Below, in pieces: positions 55,505-62,223 of a DNA stretch of 64,000 bases. Each line of letters opens with the position of its first letter. The stretch's first letter is position 1. Source of the stretch: Candidatus Sulfopaludibacter sp. SbA3. GTDB lineage: Bacteria > Acidobacteriota > Terriglobia > Bryobacterales > Bryobacteraceae. The stretch is from NCBI GenBank assembly GCA_945890485.1, contig CAMDCN010000002.1, positions 248,001 to 312,000 of the forward strand, given 5' to 3'. The position numbers and the translations under genes were made by a program. The notes under the pieces are model-generated. The model did no database searches. It was not told the origin of the DNA and saw nothing but the letters and a program-made list of their open reading frames with translations.

Positions 55505-55891
55505 ATGATCGAACGCTTTCATATCCCCGGCGCGCCTAAGCCCGCCGGGCCCTACTCCCACGCTGTCCGGGCCGGTGACTATATCTATGTCAGCGGCCAA
55601 GGGCCATTCAACACGGAGACCGGCCAGTACGAGATTGGCGACATCCGGCACGAAACCCGCATCGTCATCACGAACATCCAGAAGATCCTCGAAGGCGCCG
55701 GCGCTACCCTCGCCGACGTCGTGAAATGCTCGGTGTTCCTGAAGGACGTGGCCGAATTCAGCGCCATGAACGAGGTGTACGGCGAGTTCTTCGGCGCCGC
55801 CAAGCCGGCTCGGACGACCGTCCAGGCCGTTATGCCCAACCCCGCGATGCACGTCGAAATCGACTGCGTCGCCTATAAACCACTCGCTTAA
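55505..55891 (+). CDS. ridA: RidA-family enamine/imine deaminase
   Basis: 128 residues, the usual length. Arg103 (PARTTVQA) binds the substrate carboxylate, or here perhaps phosphonate, and Glu118 (HVEIDCVAY) completes the catalytic set. RidA hydrolyses reactive imines and enamines to ketones and ammonia. It starts 12 bases after the NYN-LOTUS gene and stops 3 bases before the PhnZ-like gene, so it probably belongs to that transcript. The neighbouring FAD oxidase would make an imine from an aminophosphonate, which would fit a local role; that is inference. Confidence 0.88.
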   Translation: MIERFHIPGAPKPAGPYSHAVRAGDYIYVSGQGPFNTETGQYEIGDIRHETRIVITNIQKILEGAGATLADVVKCSVFLKDVAEFSAMNEVYGEFFGAAKPARTTVQAVMPNPAMHVEIDCVAYKPLA

Positions 55892-55894
55892 CCG

Positions 55895-56476
55895 ATGTCT
55901 CCCGAGCAAATCGCCGATGAGATCATGAACCTCCTGGCCGCCTCGGCCAACGCCGACTACTATGGCGAGGCGGTTTCCCAATTGGCGCATGCGCTGCAGG
56001 CGGCTCAATCCGCTCGCGACGCCAACGCCGATGAAGAGTTGATCCTCGCGGCCTTGCTCCACGACATCGGCCACAACATCAGCGACTCACGAGCCATTCG
56101 CCACGGGGAGGTCGGGGTGATCAACCACGACGACCTCGGCGCCGAATGGCTCGCTGAGCGCGGGTTCTCGCCCCGGCTTCGCACGTTGGTCCGCGGCCAT
56201 GTCGATGCCAAGCGTTACCTGGTTACGACCAACGCCAACTACGCCAAACGGCTCTCCCCCGCCAGCACCGAGACGCTTAAACACCAGGGTGGGCCGATGT
56301 CGATGGAAGAGGCGGCCGCCTACGGCGCGGCGCCCGAGTTAAAGGATTGCCTCCGCTTGCGCAATTGGGACGAACTGGCCAAGGAGCCAGGGCGGCCCGT
56401 CACGCCGATTGAGGCCTATCGCGAAATGATCGTCCGTCACTTGACCGGCACGGCACGCCCCGTCCAGCAGGCGTGA
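55895..56476 (+). CDS. phnZ: PhnZ-like HD-domain mixed-valent di-iron oxygenase
   Basis: 193 residues. It is an HD-domain protein with ALLHDIGHNISD. With a constant two-residue offset, every active-site residue I recall for PhnZ is present: Tyr22, Glu25, His32, His56-Asp57, His60, His78, His102 and Asp159 (PhnZ numbers 24, 27, 34, 58, 59, 62, 80, 104, 161). PhnZ cleaves (R)-2-amino-1-hydroxyethylphosphonate to glycine and phosphate using O2. The PhnY hydroxylase that normally supplies this substrate is not in the window. It follows ridA by 3 bases and overlaps the phosphodiesterase gene tail to tail by 40 bases. Confidence 0.88.
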   Translation: MSPEQIADEIMNLLAASANADYYGEAVSQLAHALQAAQSARDANADEELILAALLHDIGHNISDSRAIRHGEVGVINHDDLGAEWLAERGFSPRLRTLVRGHVDAKRYLVTTNANYAKRLSPASTETLKHQGGPMSMEEAAAYGAAPELKDCLRLRNWDELAKEPGRPVTPIEAYREMIVRHLTGTARPVQQA

Positions 56477-57288
56477 GGCCGTAGGCCCATCAGCGAGAGC
56501 ACCGTTGGCGCCGTATCGAGCGAATAGACGGCCTCCGTCAGCTCCCGGCCCCGCGCTACACCAGGCCCTGCGAGAATCCACGGGACTTCGAGTTCCCGCA
56601 TCGATGGATTGCCGTGCTTCTTCTCCGTGCCGCCATGGTCAGCGACGATCGCGACCACCGTCTGGTCGAGCGGCAGCGCTTCAAGCATCTGCCCAATCAA
56701 ACGGTCCGCCGCCGCCACTGCCTGCAAGTATTCAGGCGACTCCCAGGTCTTATCGTGGCCCGCGTGGTCCACGTCGTCGAGATGCACAAAAAGCAGATCC
56801 GGCTTGTGCTCCTTCCAATACGCGATCGCAGCCGCCATGGCCGCGGGCGAACCTTTTACGTGGCGCGTTTCGTTCGTGGACTCTTTCTCCACCAGGCGGC
56901 CGAAGCCTTGCCAATCATGAATTACCGCCAATTGCGCGTTCGGCCGTTGCGACTTCCATTGGCTGAAAATCGTAGGGAAGATCTTCTCGGGACCGGCGCA
57001 TACCGGCTGAATCGCGTGGTTGAACCGCTCCCATTCGTTCGAATCGACGCCGTGCTGCTCCGGCCCCGCTCCCGCGATGATCGACATCCAATTCGGGCTG
57101 GAGACCGTCGGCAGTACGCCGCGCGCCCGCAAGGTCCATGCCCCTCGCGCCATCAGCTTCTTCAGGTGCGGCACTTCGGCCTTCCGCAGAGCTTCCACGC
57201 TCAACCCGTCGACACCGATGATGACGACGTGCTTCGGAGCGGCGAGTACGATTGCGGCGGAGAATGCGAAGAGCAGCAGATTCTTCAT
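56437..57288 (-). CDS. Secreted alkaline-phosphatase-superfamily phosphodiesterase/NPP-like
   Basis: 283 residues with a signal peptide (MKNLLLFAFSAAIVLAAP). It belongs to the nucleotide pyrophosphatase/phosphodiesterase branch: metal Asp27 in IIGVDGLS, the nucleophile segment LPTVSSPNW, where Ser63 takes the place of the usual Thr, DDVDHAGH at 171-178 and VADHGG with Asp217 and His218. Relatives include phosphonoacetate hydrolase (PhnA) and phosphonate monoesterases, so it could release phosphonates outside the cytoplasm. It lies between the two phosphonate gene runs on the opposite strand and diverges from the transporter gene. Confidence 0.82.
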   Translation of the reverse strand: MKNLLLFAFSAAIVLAAPKHVVIIGVDGLSVEALRKAEVPHLKKLMARGAWTLRARGVLPTVSSPNWMSIIAGAGPEQHGVDSNEWERFNHAIQPVCAGPEKIFPTIFSQWKSQRPNAQLAVIHDWQGFGRLVEKESTNETRHVKGSPAAMAAAIAYWKEHKPDLLFVHLDDVDHAGHDKTWESPEYLQAVAAADRLIGQMLEALPLDQTVVAIVADHGGTEKKHGNPSMRELEVPWILAGPGVARGRELTEAVYSLDTAPTVLSLMGLRPHACWTGRAVPVK

Positions 57289-57334
57289 CGCTTTTCATCA
57301 TCTCGAAATCTAGCGGCGATAAAGTCAAGGTTTG

Positions 57335-58600
57335 ATGACGAATGGGTCAATCCACTCCTGGCGCATCCGCATCTTTGCCATCACCTGGATTGCCTATGCC
57401 GGCTTCTACCTTTGCCGGAAGAATTTTAGCGTCCTCATGCCGCTGCTGCAGCAGCACACCGGCATCACCAAGGACGAATTGGCGACGGCGATTTTCGGCT
57501 ACAGCCTGATGTACTCCATTGGCCAGTTTCTGATGGGCACCCTATCGGATCGCCTCGGCCCCCGGCGCGTCGTCACCACCGGAATGCTGGTGGCCGGCGC
57601 GAGCAGCGTTGTCTTAGCCTTCAACACCGATACCCCGGCCGTCATCGGCCTGCAAGCGATCAACGGCCTGGCGCAGGCCTGCGGCTGGTCCGGCTTGCTG
57701 AAGATTATGTCCGCGTGGTTTGAAGCGCGCAACCGCGGCGTCGTCATGGGCTGGTGGTGTACGAACTACGCCCTCGGTGCATTTCTGGCGACCACCTTCG
57801 CCACCTTCGCGGCCACCAGTTCTCTGCTCTTCTTCCCGAGTTGGCAGCGGGGCGCGTGGATGCCCGGCGCCCTGCTGATGCTGCTCGCCGTCGGCTTCTC
57901 TATCCTCGTTCGCAACGGCCCCGGTTCGACAGAGACCAAGGCCGAATCCAAGCAGAGCCTGACGAAGTTTCTCGGCGTTGCTCGCAGCACCAACATCCGC
58001 GTCATCGCCGGGGCCTATTTCTGCCTGAAGCTGACCCGATATGCCTTCCTCTTCTGGCTGCCGGTTTATCTCACGGAGCGCCTCGGCTTCACCCCGGCCG
58101 AGGCCGGCTACAGCTCCTCGGTCTTCGAGCTTGGCGGCTTCGCTGGAGTGGTTCTGAGCGGCTATCTCTCGGACAAGCTCTTTGGAGGCCGCCGCTTCCC
58201 GGTCGGCGCGCTGATGATGATCGGCCTCGGCTGCGCCTGCCTGCTGCCCACGCTTGCCGGAATCACCGGCACATGGATCATTGTCCCATCCATCGCCCTG
58301 ATTGGATTGCTGAACCTGGGCCCGGACACCCTGCTGGGCGGAGCGGCCGTGCAGGACTCTTCCACGCGCGAAACCGTCGCCACGGCGTCCGGCTTCGTGA
58401 ACGGCACCGGCTCCACGGGCCAGTTTCTCTCTCCCTTCATCGTCGCTGGGGTGGTCCAGCGCTTCGGCTGGGATGCGTTGTTCCTGTTCTTTTTTGGCCT
58501 GTCTGTAGCGGGCGGCTTGCTGCTTACGGTGAAATGGAGCTATCGCGTTCCGGAGGAAGATCCCGATTTATGTCTCAAACCCGCGCAGACGTTGCCGTAG
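57335..58600 (+). CDS. Organophosphate:Pi antiporter (OPA/GlpT-like) family transporter
   Basis: 421 residues from the ATG at 57335 (the TTG one codon upstream is possible). Twelve membrane helices; the N-terminus AITWIAYAGFYLCRKNFSVLMPLLQQ and GQFLMGTLSDRLGPRRVVTTGM are typical of the GlpT/UhpT/PhoP-type family that exchanges phosphate for organophosphates, including aminoethylphosphonate-type carriers. Placed first in the operon with the FAD oxidoreductase and PhnX, it is the likely phosphonate importer. Its stop overlaps the next gene by 31 bases. Confidence 0.84.
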   Translation: MTNGSIHSWRIRIFAITWIAYAGFYLCRKNFSVLMPLLQQHTGITKDELATAIFGYSLMYSIGQFLMGTLSDRLGPRRVVTTGMLVAGASSVVLAFNTDTPAVIGLQAINGLAQACGWSGLLKIMSAWFEARNRGVVMGWWCTNYALGAFLATTFATFAATSSLLFFPSWQRGAWMPGALLMLLAVGFSILVRNGPGSTETKAESKQSLTKFLGVARSTNIRVIAGAYFCLKLTRYAFLFWLPVYLTERLGFTPAEAGYSSSVFELGGFAGVVLSGYLSDKLFGGRRFPVGALMMIGLGCACLLPTLAGITGTWIIVPSIALIGLLNLGPDTLLGGAAVQDSSTRETVATASGFVNGTGSTGQFLSPFIVAGVVQRFGWDALFLFFFGLSVAGGLLLTVKWSYRVPEEDPDLCLKPAQTLP

Positions 58601-59697
58601 TTGGTGGCGGAATTCTGGGCCTCGCCCACGCCTATCATGCGGCCAAGGCGGGCAAGCGCGTCGTCCTGTTTGAACGCTCGCCCCGCGCGATGGGCGCCTC
58701 CATCCGCAACTTTGGCATGGTGTGGCCCGTGGGTCAGCCCGCCGGAAAGATGCACCAGATGGCGATGACCAGCCGGGCCCATTGGCTCGATGTCATCGCA
58801 GCCGCGAAGCTGCCCCACTATCCCACCGGCTCCCTGCACGTTGTCTATCGCGAAGATGAAGCCACCGTCGCGCAGGAGTTCGCGGCGCTGGCTCCGTCGC
58901 AAGGGTTCGACGTCACTTGGTTCACCCCGGCGCAGGTGTTGGAACGTAGCCCCGCCGTGGTGGCGGAAGGCCTGCTCGGCGGGCTCTGGTCTCCCACCGA
59001 AGTGGTCGTTGACCCCCGCGTGACCCTGTGGACCCTGCCCAGCTACCTCTCCGAACAGCTCGGCGTCACGCTGCGCTACAACACCGCCGTCACCAGCATC
59101 GACTTGCCCCGCGTCACCGCCGGTGACGAAACCTGGGAGGTCGATACGGTCTACGTCTGCTGCGGCGACGACTTCCAAACGCTTTATCCCGCCGTCTTCG
59201 CCGATAGCGGCATCACCCGCTGCAAGCTGCAGATGCTGCGCACCGCCGCGCAGCCGAACCAGTGGCAGCTCGGCCCATCGCTGGCCGCCGGCCTGACGCT
59301 GCGTTTCTATAGCTCCTTCGGCCTCTGCCCGTCGCTGCCGAAATTGAAAGCCCGTATCGCCGCCGAAACGCCGGAGTACGACGAATGGGGCATCCACGTG
59401 CTCGTATCCCAAACCGCCGCGGGGGAGATCACCCTTGGCGACACCCACGAGTACGGTCTCGCCGTCGACATTTTCGACAAGCCCGAGCTCGACGACCTGG
59501 TCCTCCGCTATCTCGCCACCTTCGCCCGCTTCCCGGACCAGACCATCATCCAGCGCTGGCACGGCGTCTACGCGAAACATCCGGATCTACCCTACTGCCG
59601 CTTCCAACCGGTCCCCGGCGTCCAGGTGGTCACCGCGCCCGGCGGCAGCGGCATGACACTCTCTTTCGGCCTCGCCGCCGAGACGCTTTCTCTATGA
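58570..59697 (+). CDS. TIGR03364-type FAD-dependent oxidoreductase of phosphonate clusters
   Basis: 375 residues from the ATG at 58570 inside the transporter gene. The FAD motif VAVVGGGILGLAHAYHAAKAG is at about 8-28, and the DAO-like C-terminus is GVQVVTAPGGSGMTLSFGLAAE. This DadA-like family is found beside PhnX in many genomes, and is thought to oxidise (N-methyl-)2-aminoethylphosphonate to phosphonoacetaldehyde, which PhnX then cleaves. Its 3' end overlaps phnX by 4 bases (ATGA), so the two are coupled. I rely on memory for the family assignment and its substrate. Confidence 0.85.
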   Translation: MSQTRADVAVVGGGILGLAHAYHAAKAGKRVVLFERSPRAMGASIRNFGMVWPVGQPAGKMHQMAMTSRAHWLDVIAAAKLPHYPTGSLHVVYREDEATVAQEFAALAPSQGFDVTWFTPAQVLERSPAVVAEGLLGGLWSPTEVVVDPRVTLWTLPSYLSEQLGVTLRYNTAVTSIDLPRVTAGDETWEVDTVYVCCGDDFQTLYPAVFADSGITRCKLQMLRTAAQPNQWQLGPSLAAGLTLRFYSSFGLCPSLPKLKARIAAETPEYDEWGIHVLVSQTAAGEITLGDTHEYGLAVDIFDKPELDDLVLRYLATFARFPDQTIIQRWHGVYAKHPDLPYCRFQPVPGVQVVTAPGGSGMTLSFGLAAETLSL

Positions 59698-60476
59698 TCA
59701 AAGCTCTGATTCTCGATTGGGCCGGCACGACTGTCGACCATGGTTGTCTGGCTCCGGTTATCGTCCTCCAGGAAATCTTCTCTCTGCGCGGCGTCCCGCT
59801 CGAACGGCGCGAAGCCCGCCATCAGATGGGCCTGCTGAAGAAGGACCAGATCCGCGCTATCTGCGCCCTGCCCCGCGTCGCCGAAGCGTGGGCGACTCGC
59901 CACGGCACGCCGCCCGCGGAGAAGGACGTGCAGGCGCTCTTTGAAAGCTTCATCCCCCGGCAACTGAATATCCTCGAACATCACTCGGGCGTCATTGAAG
60001 GGGTCGTCGAGTTCATCGCCGAGTGCCGCCGCCGAGGCATCCACATCGGTTCCACCACCGGCTACACGCGGGAGATGCTCGATGTCGTCATGCGGCGCGC
60101 CGCGCGTGATGGCTACGCCCCGGATGCGAGCGTGACCCCGGACGAAGTCGGCGGCGGCCGCCCCGCGCCGTGGATGGTTTTTCGCAACGCCCAGCTTTTG
60201 AACGTCTACCCGCTCTCGCACTGCGTTAAGATCGGCGACACCCCCAGCGACATCGCTGAAGGCAAGAACGCCGGCATGTGGACCATCGGCCTGACGAGTT
60301 GCGGCAACGAGGTCGGCCTCACCGCCGCTGAGTATGAAGCGCTCTCCTTCGGCGAACGCGCGGCGCGTACTCTCGAAGCCGAACAGACGCTGCGCCGCGG
60401 GCAACCCGACTATCTCGCCGAGCGCCTCGCCGACTGCCTGCCCCTGCTCGACGACATCGCGATGAGAATGGAATAA
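59694..60476 (+). CDS. phnX: Phosphonoacetaldehyde hydrolase (PhnX)
   Basis: 260 residues. A HAD-family phosphonatase: nucleophile Asp8 in LILDWAGTTVDHG, and the cap-domain Lys49 in MGLLKKDQIRA that forms the Schiff base with the aldehyde. Their spacing of 41 residues equals that of the Bacillus cereus enzyme (Asp12/Lys53). VIEGVVEFIAECRRRGIHIGSTTGYTREM and CVKIGDTPSDIAEGKNAGMW complete the HAD motifs. It cleaves phosphonoacetaldehyde to acetaldehyde and phosphate. It overlaps the FAD oxidoreductase by 4 bases and shares TAATG with the next gene. Confidence 0.93.
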   Translation: MIKALILDWAGTTVDHGCLAPVIVLQEIFSLRGVPLERREARHQMGLLKKDQIRAICALPRVAEAWATRHGTPPAEKDVQALFESFIPRQLNILEHHSGVIEGVVEFIAECRRRGIHIGSTTGYTREMLDVVMRRAARDGYAPDASVTPDEVGGGRPAPWMVFRNAQLLNVYPLSHCVKIGDTPSDIAEGKNAGMWTIGLTSCGNEVGLTAAEYEALSFGERAARTLEAEQTLRRGQPDYLAERLADCLPLLDDIAMRME

Positions 60477-61045
60477 TGTCCCCGGCCCTCATCCTCATCG
60501 ATCTGCAGCTTGCCATCGACGACGTTTCCTGGGGCCAACGCAACAACCTCGACGCCGAGAGCAATGTATGCCGCCTGCTGCAACGTTGGCGTTCGGAGCA
60601 GTGGCCGATCTTTCACATTCGTCACGACTCGCGGGAGCCCGGTTCCCTGTACCGTCCCGGTCAACCTCTCCACGCCTTCAAGCCGGAGACGGGTCCGCTG
60701 CCCGGCGAAACGGTGTTGGGCAAAACGACGTGCAGTGCCTTCCTCAGCACCGACCTCGCGGACCGCGTCCGCGGCCTGCCGATGGTCGTCGCCGGGGTCA
60801 TCACCAACAACTCGGTCGAGTCCACCGTCCGCTCCGCGGGTGACCTGGGCTTCGCGGTCATCCTCGCCCACGATGCCTCTTTCACGTTCGCGCGGCGCGA
60901 CTGGTTCGGGGTGGAACGCACCGCCGATGAGGTGCACGCGATGAGCCTGTCGAATTTGGACGGAGAATACTGTAGAGTCTTATCGACAAGCGAGATCCTA
61001 TGCGACGTCGAGACCTACTCTCCCTCATCTCCCTCCCGGCCTTAG
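60476..61045 (+). CDS. Isochorismatase-fold hydrolase with Ser replacing the catalytic Cys
   Basis: 189 residues. The isochorismatase/cysteine hydrolase fold is intact: Asp9 in LILIDLQ, Lys83 in VLGKTTCSAF and the nucleophile elbow GVITNNSVESTVRSAGDLGF. The residue in the nucleophile position is Ser113 (codon TCG at 60812-60814), where amide hydrolases have Cys. True isochorismatases (EntB, PhzD) also lack the Cys, so it may catalyse hydrolysis without a covalent intermediate, or it may be inactive. It is coupled to phnX by TAATG and overlaps the enolase gene by 46 bases. Confidence 0.82.
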   Translation: MSPALILIDLQLAIDDVSWGQRNNLDAESNVCRLLQRWRSEQWPIFHIRHDSREPGSLYRPGQPLHAFKPETGPLPGETVLGKTTCSAFLSTDLADRVRGLPMVVAGVITNNSVESTVRSAGDLGFAVILAHDASFTFARRDWFGVERTADEVHAMSLSNLDGEYCRVLSTSEILCDVETYSPSSPSRP

Positions 61046-62223
61046 GCTGGGCCCAAGAAAAATCGAAGCTTAAGATCACGGGCGTACGCCTCGTGAACGC
61101 GAAGCCGCGAAAGCCGTATCCGGCCTTCAAACCCGCGCCCGGCGCGTGGTCCACTCAGTTCGTCGAGATCGCCAACCCCATGTCGATCTACCCCGAGTAC
61201 AAAGCTCGCCGCGAACTCTTCTTCCCCAACCCCGGCAAGGTGCCGAGCTTCACCGTCGAGATCACCACCGACAAAGGCATCACCGGCTACGGCAACGGTG
61301 GCCCCGGTGGAGGGCCCGTCGTGGTCGATCACTTGGCTAAATTGCTGGTGGGCCGCGACCCGTTCGACATCGAACGGAACTGGGACATCTGCTGGCGCTC
61401 CACGATGAACTACGGCCGCATGGGCGTCACGATGAACGCCATCAGCGGTGTGGACAACGCGATGTGGGACATCGTCGGCAAGGCGCTGAATGTGCCGGTC
61501 TACAAGCTGCTCGGCGGCGAGGCGAAGGACCGCATTCCCGCCTACTGCACCGGCAATGACATTGAGCAGCACATCGAGTTCGGCTATACGAAGCTGAAGC
61601 TCGCCATCCCCCACGGCCCAGCCGACGGCCGCGCCGGCATGAAGGCGAATCTCGCCCTGGTCGAACGCGCCCGCAAAGCCCTCGGCCCGGACGGCGAAAT
61701 CATGCTCGATTGCTGGATGGCCTGGACCGAGCGCTACACGGTGGAGATGGCCGAGATGATGGCGTCTCAGCGCGTCTACTGGATGGAGGAGGTACTGCAG
61801 CCGCACGACTACGCCGGCTTCGGCCGCCTCAACAGCCAGATCAAATCGACGCGGATCGCTACGGGCGAGCATGAGTACGGCCGCTACGGCTTCCGCTACC
61901 TGCTCGAACACAATGGCGCTTCCATCTGGCAGCCGGATCTGAATTGGTGCGGGGGCTTGACCGAGCTACGGCGCATTGGCGCACTCGGCGCAGCCTACGA
62001 CATCCCGGTGATTCCGCACGGTGGCGGCCTGAACGGCTCTTCGCATTTCATCCTGTCGCAGGTGAACTCTCCGTGGGCCGAACTGTTTCTGCCGCCTCCC
62101 GGTGGTCCGAAAGAGGTGTACCAGTTGTTTGAGGAGAACTACAACATCAGCCGCGGTCCGGAAGGGATTTACATGCGGCCGCCCGAGCGTCCCGGCTTCG
62201 GCTGGGACTACGTGGTCAGCTAA
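61000..62223 (+). CDS. Tat-exported enolase-superfamily dehydratase, RhmD-like
   Basis: 407 residues. The leader MRRRDLLSLISLPALGWAQ is a twin-arginine signal. The enolase barrel has the metal ligands Asp237 (MLDCWM), Glu263 (WMEEV) and Glu290 (ATGEHE), and the general base His340 (VIPHGGG), matching the L-rhamnonate dehydratase group (Asp226, Glu252, Glu280, His329 in E. coli RhmD, from memory). It should dehydrate an acid sugar. Export makes it unusual among this otherwise cytosolic group. It overlaps the isochorismatase-fold gene by 46 bases, so it is co-transcribed with phnX, although no phosphonate role is evident. Confidence 0.85.
   Translation: MRRRDLLSLISLPALGWAQEKSKLKITGVRLVNAKPRKPYPAFKPAPGAWSTQFVEIANPMSIYPEYKARRELFFPNPGKVPSFTVEITTDKGITGYGNGGPGGGPVVVDHLAKLLVGRDPFDIERNWDICWRSTMNYGRMGVTMNAISGVDNAMWDIVGKALNVPVYKLLGGEAKDRIPAYCTGNDIEQHIEFGYTKLKLAIPHGPADGRAGMKANLALVERARKALGPDGEIMLDCWMAWTERYTVEMAEMMASQRVYWMEEVLQPHDYAGFGRLNSQIKSTRIATGEHEYGRYGFRYLLEHNGASIWQPDLNWCGGLTELRRIGALGAAYDIPVIPHGGGLNGSSHFILSQVNSPWAELFLPPPGGPKEVYQLFEENYNISRGPEGIYMRPPERPGFGWDYVVS

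Follow-up and report, generated by a model that had tools for sequence, protein, structure and literature searches.

Between positions 55895 and 60476 of the window, by which we mean the whole stretch of 64,000 nucleotides (nt) analysed from the genome of Candidatus Sulfopaludibacter sp. SbA3 (Acidobacteriota, Bryobacteraceae), lie the genes for an HD-domain oxygenase related to PhnZ, a transporter of the OPA family, a flavin adenine dinucleotide (FAD)-dependent oxidase and the phosphonoacetaldehyde hydrolase PhnX. We consider it likely that these genes form a module for scavenging phosphorus and nitrogen from aminophosphonates, in which two parallel routes act on different substrates. Both the enzymes and their combination have previously been described in other bacteria, and the present analysis extends this recently described phosphonate-scavenging gene set to an Acidobacteriota family.

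The eight proteins encoded from the RidA gene through to the enolase-superfamily gene were scanned against the NCBIfam and Pfam profiles, giving the following layout.

55505-55891, plus strand: RidA-family imine/enamine deaminase (TIGR00004, 120.6 bits against a cut-off of 106)
55895-56476, plus strand: PhnZ-type HD-domain oxygenase (TIGR03276, 202.8 bits, below the cut-off of 214.6)
56437-57288, minus strand: nucleotide pyrophosphatase/phosphodiesterase (NPP)-like protein (PF01663, 114.9 bits; NPP structure 2gsn, E 6e-13)
57332 (TTG start) or 57335 (ATG start)-58600, plus strand: OPA-family (GlpT/AepP-like) transporter (PF07690, 201.6 bits)
58570-59697, plus strand: FAD-dependent aminophosphonate oxidase, TIGR03364 (HpnW/PbfD family; 418.4 bits against a cut-off of 285.1)
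59694-60476, plus strand: PhnX, phosphonoacetaldehyde hydrolase (TIGR01422, 321.5 bits against a cut-off of 220)
60476-61045, plus strand: isochorismatase-like hydrolase (PF00857, 85.5 bits)
61000-62223, plus strand: enolase-superfamily protein (L-rhamnonate dehydratase model, 276 bits, below the cut-off of 393)

The transporter and FAD oxidase genes overlap by 31 nt and the oxidase and PhnX genes by 4 nt, and because of these overlaps the three almost surely constitute one operon. The PhnX stop overlaps the start of the isochorismatase-like gene by 1 nt. The HD gene begins 3 nt after the RidA gene, and its 3' end overlaps that of the phosphodiesterase-like gene.

The enzymes and the transporter

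The best NCBIfam match of the HD protein is TIGR03276 (Phn-HD; E 3e-60), while the models for TmpB (134 bits) and PhnZ1 (113 bits) give lower scores, each below its own cut-off. PhnZ itself is found in the PDB with E 1e-45 (entry 4mlm), and 80 of 176 aligned residues are identical to PhnZ, compared with 60 of 151 for TmpB. A preliminary description of this locus, made from the sequence, had claimed that the known active-site residues of PhnZ are present at a constant offset. This is borne out at all 12 positions compared (Tyr24, Glu27, His34, His58, Asp59, His62, His80, His104, Lys108, Ser126, Gln133 and Asp161 in PhnZ numbering), with a constant offset of -2. Apart from those of the lid and the ligand motif, the residue numbers are what we take to be the PhnZ numbering; the letters matched the PhnZ sequence. 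The di-iron ligand motif H...HD...H...H...D, the YxxE lid and the substrate-site residues of PhnZ are therefore all present in the HD protein. The Tyr24/Glu27 lid and the ligand motif have been described for PhnZ (PMC8177086).

An AlphaFold model of the HD protein, built from an alignment of 26 rows, has a mean predicted local distance difference test score (pLDDT) of 95. Its top PDB match in Foldseek is PhnZ bound to (R)-1-hydroxy-2-aminoethylphosphonate (HAEP; PDB entry 4n71), with a root-mean-square deviation of 1.4 and template-modelling scores of 0.89 and 0.96. On sequence grounds the HD protein is a probable PhnZ-type oxygenase with a mixed-valent di-iron centre, and by analogy with PhnZ its substrate would be (R)-HAEP and its products glycine and phosphate. 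The ratio of nonsynonymous to synonymous substitutions (dN/dS, Nei-Gojobori) is 0.035-0.059 relative to three genus relatives.

The PhnZ fold is known to serve other substrates, as in GmPhnZ and TmpB (PMC10574752), and the HD protein could accordingly act on another alpha-hydroxyphosphonate, for example hydroxymethylphosphonate or a trimethylated compound. We hold this to be improbable: the PhnZ1 and TmpB models fit worse than Phn-HD (203 bits), Foldseek places PhnZ above TmpB, and in a quick tree of HD proteins, which did not include the PhnZ1 of G. maris, TmpB branches among the TmpA-associated proteins, at a distance from the window protein.

The FAD protein (model pLDDT 91) scores far above the cut-off of TIGR03364, the family to which the preliminary description had assigned it. 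For PhnX, the TIGR01422 score is well above that of the PhnX-like model TIGR03351 (94 bits). Asp8, which we take to be the nucleophile, and Lys49, presumably the Schiff-base lysine, are both present as had been stated, and they line up with their counterparts in PhnX chains of solved structure. The assignment of the transporter as OPA-like also stands, its closest solved relative being GlpT (PDB entry 1pw4, E 4e-31), though it remains below the cut-offs of the OPA models (TIGR00881, 210 bits against 408). Kinship to GlpT and co-location with genes of 2-aminoethylphosphonate (AEP) catabolism, here through the overlap with the oxidase gene, are traits of AepP, a GlpT-related permease for AEP that also occurs in an acidobacterium (PMC8316502). 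Relative to the three genus relatives, dN/dS is 0.046-0.091 for the oxidase and 0.025-0.067 for PhnX, with the transporter at 0.036-0.089; values relative to an Acidobacteria metagenome-assembled genome (MAG), locus L107, are 0.05-0.11.

Co-occurrence and linkage

Co-occurrence was evaluated among 150 genomes of the family, with limits of E 1e-20 for the HD protein, E 1e-60 for the FAD oxidase and E 1e-40 for PhnX, and with the lyase PbfA counted when over its cut-off. The respective genes are found in 26, 30, 42 and five genomes. HD and oxidase are found together in 21 genomes where 5.2 are expected (p 3e-14, a value that ignores relatedness), which gives quantitative genomic support to the HD protein and the PbfD-family oxidase serving one physiological task. 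HD and PhnX also share 21 genomes (7.3 expected), and oxidase and PhnX share 26 (8.4 expected); the oxidase and PbfA share a single genome. Counted by genus, HD and oxidase each occur in 16 of 76 genera and have 12 in common (p 8e-8, relatedness again ignored). Within the genus of the window, and at the same limits, four of six genomes contain the HD, oxidase and PhnX genes and the other two contain none of them.

The window and 25 other genomes provide 26 HD loci in the family, in which neighbours were counted from tblastn seeds; the lists of a simple open-reading-frame caller mislabel some antisense frames. The oxidase gene lies within 7 kb of the HD gene in 16 of these loci, always on the same strand, and is accompanied by PhnX in 14 of the 16, so that the comparison of gene neighbourhoods proposed in the preliminary description does reveal linkage. 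Several orders occur (HD-OPA-FAD-PhnX, HD-FAD-PhnX, OPA-FAD-PhnX-HD and FAD-PhnX-OPA-HD), and relatives such as L216, L218, L221 and L223 carry HD, OPA, FAD and PhnX genes in one same-strand run. A TmpA-like gene is present in one of the 26 loci and none of the genes sought in seven. One family member (L227, genome G433) combines oxidase, PhnX, transporter, a TmpA-like hydroxylase (43% identity) and HD genes in one run, and so brings together three aminophosphonate strategies. In L107, the nearest named MAG, the HD protein is 79% identical and the order RidA, HD, phosphodiesterase, transporter, FAD, PhnX is kept; the HD, transporter and phosphodiesterase matches each fall into two segments there, due to frameshifts or assembly errors.

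The start of the HD gene just 3 nt downstream of RidA, together with an opposite-strand gene ahead of the transporter, would also be expected if HD simply belonged to a RidA transcript and its proximity to PhnX were due to chance. The same-strand runs of HD, OPA, FAD and PhnX genes in relatives and the co-occurrence of HD and oxidase argue strongly against this, and we rejected chance neighbourhood as extremely improbable.

Across 297 genomes of the phylum, TIGR03276 is matched at E 0.001 in 84 and at full length (at least 198 bits) in four, while the oxidase and PhnX exceed their cut-offs in four and seven genomes, respectively. Among 14 control genomes, weak matches were obtained to TIGR03276 in three and to the oxidase and PhnX models in all 14, none of them over cut-off. 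HD and oxidase occur together in three of the 297 genomes (hypergeometric p 4e-6, or 2e-4 once a same-family pair is reduced to a single genome). The three genes HD, FAD and PhnX adjoin in G275, and G235 has HD, transporter, oxidase and a PhnX-like gene; in G171 the transporter is next to HD and no oxidase exceeds the cut-off, and FAD-PhnX stands without any HD match in G195.

Beyond the phylum, public genome contigs scanned with the HD alignment yielded at least 203 confirmed relatives, and the analysis continued with the best 80. Of these best 80 loci, 19 have an oxidase homologue (tblastn, four acidobacterial seeds) no more than 7 kb from HD, although matches near 35% identity (for example L161 and L173) may represent other oxidase subgroups. 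All 19 loci also contain PhnX (nine) or a PhnX-like protein (ten), and they are distributed over Bacteroidota (seven), Alphaproteobacteria (four), Betaproteobacteria (three), Planctomycetota (three), Armatimonadota (one) and Acidobacteria (one, L107). Within the same 80 loci, 22 have a TmpA-like gene and 24 none of the genes sought. Over the 110 HD proteins of the quick tree, the FAD label requires 17 changes compared with 30.4 in shuffles (none of 500 as low), a clustering to which near-copies add; deep forks are weak, the L114 branch is very long and one protein of fewer than 150 residues was left out. Two plasmids carry a TIGR03364 gene together with a partial HD match; in Asticcacaulis (NZ_AP029026, 253891-255748) the two are separated by about 0.5 kb and in Hymenobacter (NZ_CP043649, 27918-38682) by about 9 kb, a hint that the module is mobile.

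Substrate supply and flanking genes

In the pathway that we propose, the OPA-type, AepP-like transporter would bring aminophosphonates into the cell, possibly by exchange against phosphate. The oxidase of the PbfD family would then convert N-methyl-AEP, AEP or both to phosphonoacetaldehyde with release of methylamine or ammonia and of H2O2, and PhnX would split phosphonoacetaldehyde into acetaldehyde and phosphate, both reactions being assigned by analogy with published members of these families. The oxidase would in this way supply the substrate of PhnX, and therefore PhnW would not be needed. In parallel, the HD oxygenase would turn ready-made, imported (R)-HAEP into glycine and phosphate, filling the niche that PbfA holds in other clusters. 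A parallel use of the two routes is what we infer from these assignments, and it is plausible, again by analogy, that external (R)-HAEP feeds the HD protein without PhnY.

The genome offers a clean case in which the role of PhnZ-like enzymes without the AEP hydroxylase PhnY* can be probed, as no PhnW, PbfA or PhnJ was found over cut-off; the assembly (7.13 Mb, 35 contigs) is 97.4% complete and may miss a few percent. The genome search for PhnW, PhnY and PbfA proposed in the preliminary description finds neither PhnW nor PbfA over cut-off. With the PhnW model TIGR02326 the genome reaches at most 122 bits, where the cut-off is 401, and the two best of the eight matches, considered as PhnW candidates, were discarded since they fit other aminotransferase models better, all below cut-off. 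PbfA has no match at E 1e-80. Four of the five class-III aminotransferase matches were scanned with NCBIfam as PbfA candidates and rejected, the best PbfA score being 207 bits against 525; the fifth appeared HemL-like by eye and was left out of that scan. The carbon-phosphorus lyase protein PhnJ has no match in the genome. For PhnY the absence noted in that description can be upheld at the locus only: no 2-oxoglutarate AEP hydroxylase is recognized among the eight neighbouring genes scanned (the TauD family, to which TmpA-type enzymes belong, was not searched genome-wide), but four PhyH-family genes (L187-L190) are over the Pfam cut-off elsewhere. At E 1e-15, three of the four have no NCBIfam match, and the remaining one hits the ectoine hydroxylase model with a score far under the cut-off.

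These four PhyH genes, the sole candidates encountered for a PhnY* encoded apart from the locus, leave room for a complete oxidative PhnY*/PhnZ pathway, in which a PhyH-type AEP hydroxylase encoded elsewhere would feed the HD protein and AEP would be divided between oxidative and hydrolytic cleavage. The retention of all checked PhnZ residues in the HD protein is in keeping with such a pathway. We nevertheless regard it as rather unlikely. All four genes are on other contigs and have the poor profile matches just given, and a TmpA-type gene accompanies HD in only one of the 26 family loci (PhyH-type neighbours were not profile-searched there). Competition for AEP would furthermore be expected to leave the FAD/PhnX branch redundant.

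The oxidase and the HD protein could also act in series on one compound, with the oxidase making the substrate of the HD protein, an option raised for Achromobacter (PMC11203657) and in keeping with their strong co-occurrence and linkage. The published PbfD enzymes instead yield phosphonoacetaldehyde, the PhnX substrate, and leave sarcosine untouched (PMC10590968), and oxidase genes are found without an HD match in G195, where FAD-PhnX is present, and in nine of the 30 family genomes with the oxidase. There is in our view little chance that the serial arrangement is correct.

Several observations weigh against the parallel two-route module. The HD protein, at 202.8 bits, misses the curated TIGR03276 cut-off, so that of the two proteins for which the preliminary description had made its reading depend on the family profiles, the oxidase passes and the HD protein has the right best match at too low a score. 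This cut-off looks strict for the phylum, since none of the 297 genomes passes it (top score 214.1 bits). In the window genome the phosphodiesterase-like gene, which the preliminary description did not mention, separates HD from transporter, oxidase and PhnX on the opposite strand, and the HD gene therefore stands outside the uninterrupted same-strand run. Five of the 26 family genomes with HD have no oxidase match, the nine oxidase genomes without HD have been mentioned, and in five of the 21 genomes with both genes these are on different contigs. Outside the family, HD and oxidase share a strand in only 11 of the 19 loci. The exclusion between HD and PbfA is not significant in the family (no shared genome, 0.9 expected); among the 42 PhnX genomes p is 0.053, in the published direction. 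The four unlinked PhyH genes also count here, and activity of the oxidase on plain AEP is putative.

The parallel two-route module remains the reading that we favour. A more far-reaching version of it is offered only tentatively, and we doubt it more than we trust it: the HD protein of PbfD-PhnX clusters may represent a hydroxylase-independent PhnZ branch acting on ready-made (R)-HAEP or its N-methyl form, selected together with the oxidase in several phyla, where it would be the oxygen-dependent equivalent of PbfA, and in this genus an exported phosphodiesterase-like enzyme may free aminophosphonates from lipid or glycan esters.

The phosphodiesterase-like protein has a signal-peptide-like N-terminus (by eye) and could release aminophosphonates from esters. 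Its gene lies between HD and transporter in all three genus relatives whose HD locus could be read and in L107, and is absent from this position in the other family loci read. One homologue (48% identity) occurs near PhnX and the transporter in L104, another (43%) close to HD in L126 (Phenylobacterium).

RidA is 96-100% identical in the three genus relatives and 91% identical in L107. It adjoins HD only in these genomes, a single 34% homologue being found elsewhere about 6.6 kb from HD (L150). RidA was therefore dropped as a general component or partner of the FAD enzyme, and is probably not a general part of the gene set. The isochorismatase-like gene is fragmented in G443 and without a match in G407, and the contig of G300 ends too near; it was dropped as a core part because it is not conserved in the genus, and probably lies outside the core. 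In L107 it is 79% identical along its entire length, and, broken or unfound in the genus yet complete there, it looks to be undergoing loss in the genus. The enolase-superfamily protein has a signal-like N-terminus (by eye); its counterparts in two of the genus relatives are 96% and 92% identical, and in the third the contig ends before the gene.

Relation to known systems

No report of the cluster in Acidobacteria, nor of an assay of an HD protein from such a cluster, was found among the open-access titles and abstract openings listed. The preliminary description had called the combination of both routes without PhnW or PhnY unusual, and this does not hold: the combination has been published (PMC11203657) and recurs in the 16 family loci and the 19 of the best 80 loci described above, and PbfD and PhnX clusters without PhnW were published in 2023 (PMC10590968). 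Its proposal that the oxidase substitutes for PhnW in supplying PhnX agrees with that same work on PbfD and with the lack of an over-cut-off PhnW here. PbfD enzymes convert both N-methyl-AEP (M1AEP) and AEP to phosphonoacetaldehyde, and the Acinetobacter baumannii PbfD carries the TIGR03364 annotation (PMC10590968). For Mariniblastus, PbfD2 was proposed to replace PhnW in a pathway made up of PbfD2 and PhnX (PMC10590968). The pair in Mariniblastus fucicola resembles the present one in joining an FAD oxidase to PhnX in a genome without PhnW. It differs in that no HD oxygenase is mentioned for the cluster in the available part of the text, the article's four mentions of PhnZ serving as background or references (PMC10590968), whereas the HD gene is present here.

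A close likeness also exists to the Achromobacter cluster hpnW-phnSXUT with lysR and phnHD (TIGR03276), described in 2024 (PMC11203657). Both have a TIGR03364 oxidase replacing PhnW, PhnX and a nearby TIGR03276 HD protein, and the available text names no PhnY* in Achromobacter. HAEP was the likeliest substrate of PhnHD by modelling, the functions being called a conundrum (PMC11203657). The Achromobacter cluster, which includes a LysR gene, has phnSTU transporter genes where the present locus has a transporter of the OPA type, and the inserted phosphodiesterase-like gene belongs to the present locus; phnW lies elsewhere in the Achromobacter chromosome, whereas the present genome has none over cut-off. 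A similar cluster in O. anthropi GPK 3 is reported to go without any phnW (PMC11203657).

With the oxidative PhnY*/PhnZ pathway for AEP, the window shares the HD fold, all checked residues and the 80 of 176 identical positions; it differs in that no hydroxylase gene is recognized in the cluster. PhnZ homologues have been reported in 15 of 1,186 phnWX clusters and 24 of 75 phnWAY clusters, never with PbfA, and use of external (R)-HAEP, a natural compound, was already proposed for them (PMC8154272). The phnWX clusters that contain PbfA share the logic of an accessory (R)-HAEP enzyme beside PhnX (PMC8154272, 2021). There the enzyme is PbfA, a pyridoxal phosphate-dependent lyase that gives phosphonoacetaldehyde, whereas here it would be an HD oxygenase that, by analogy with PhnZ, gives glycine.

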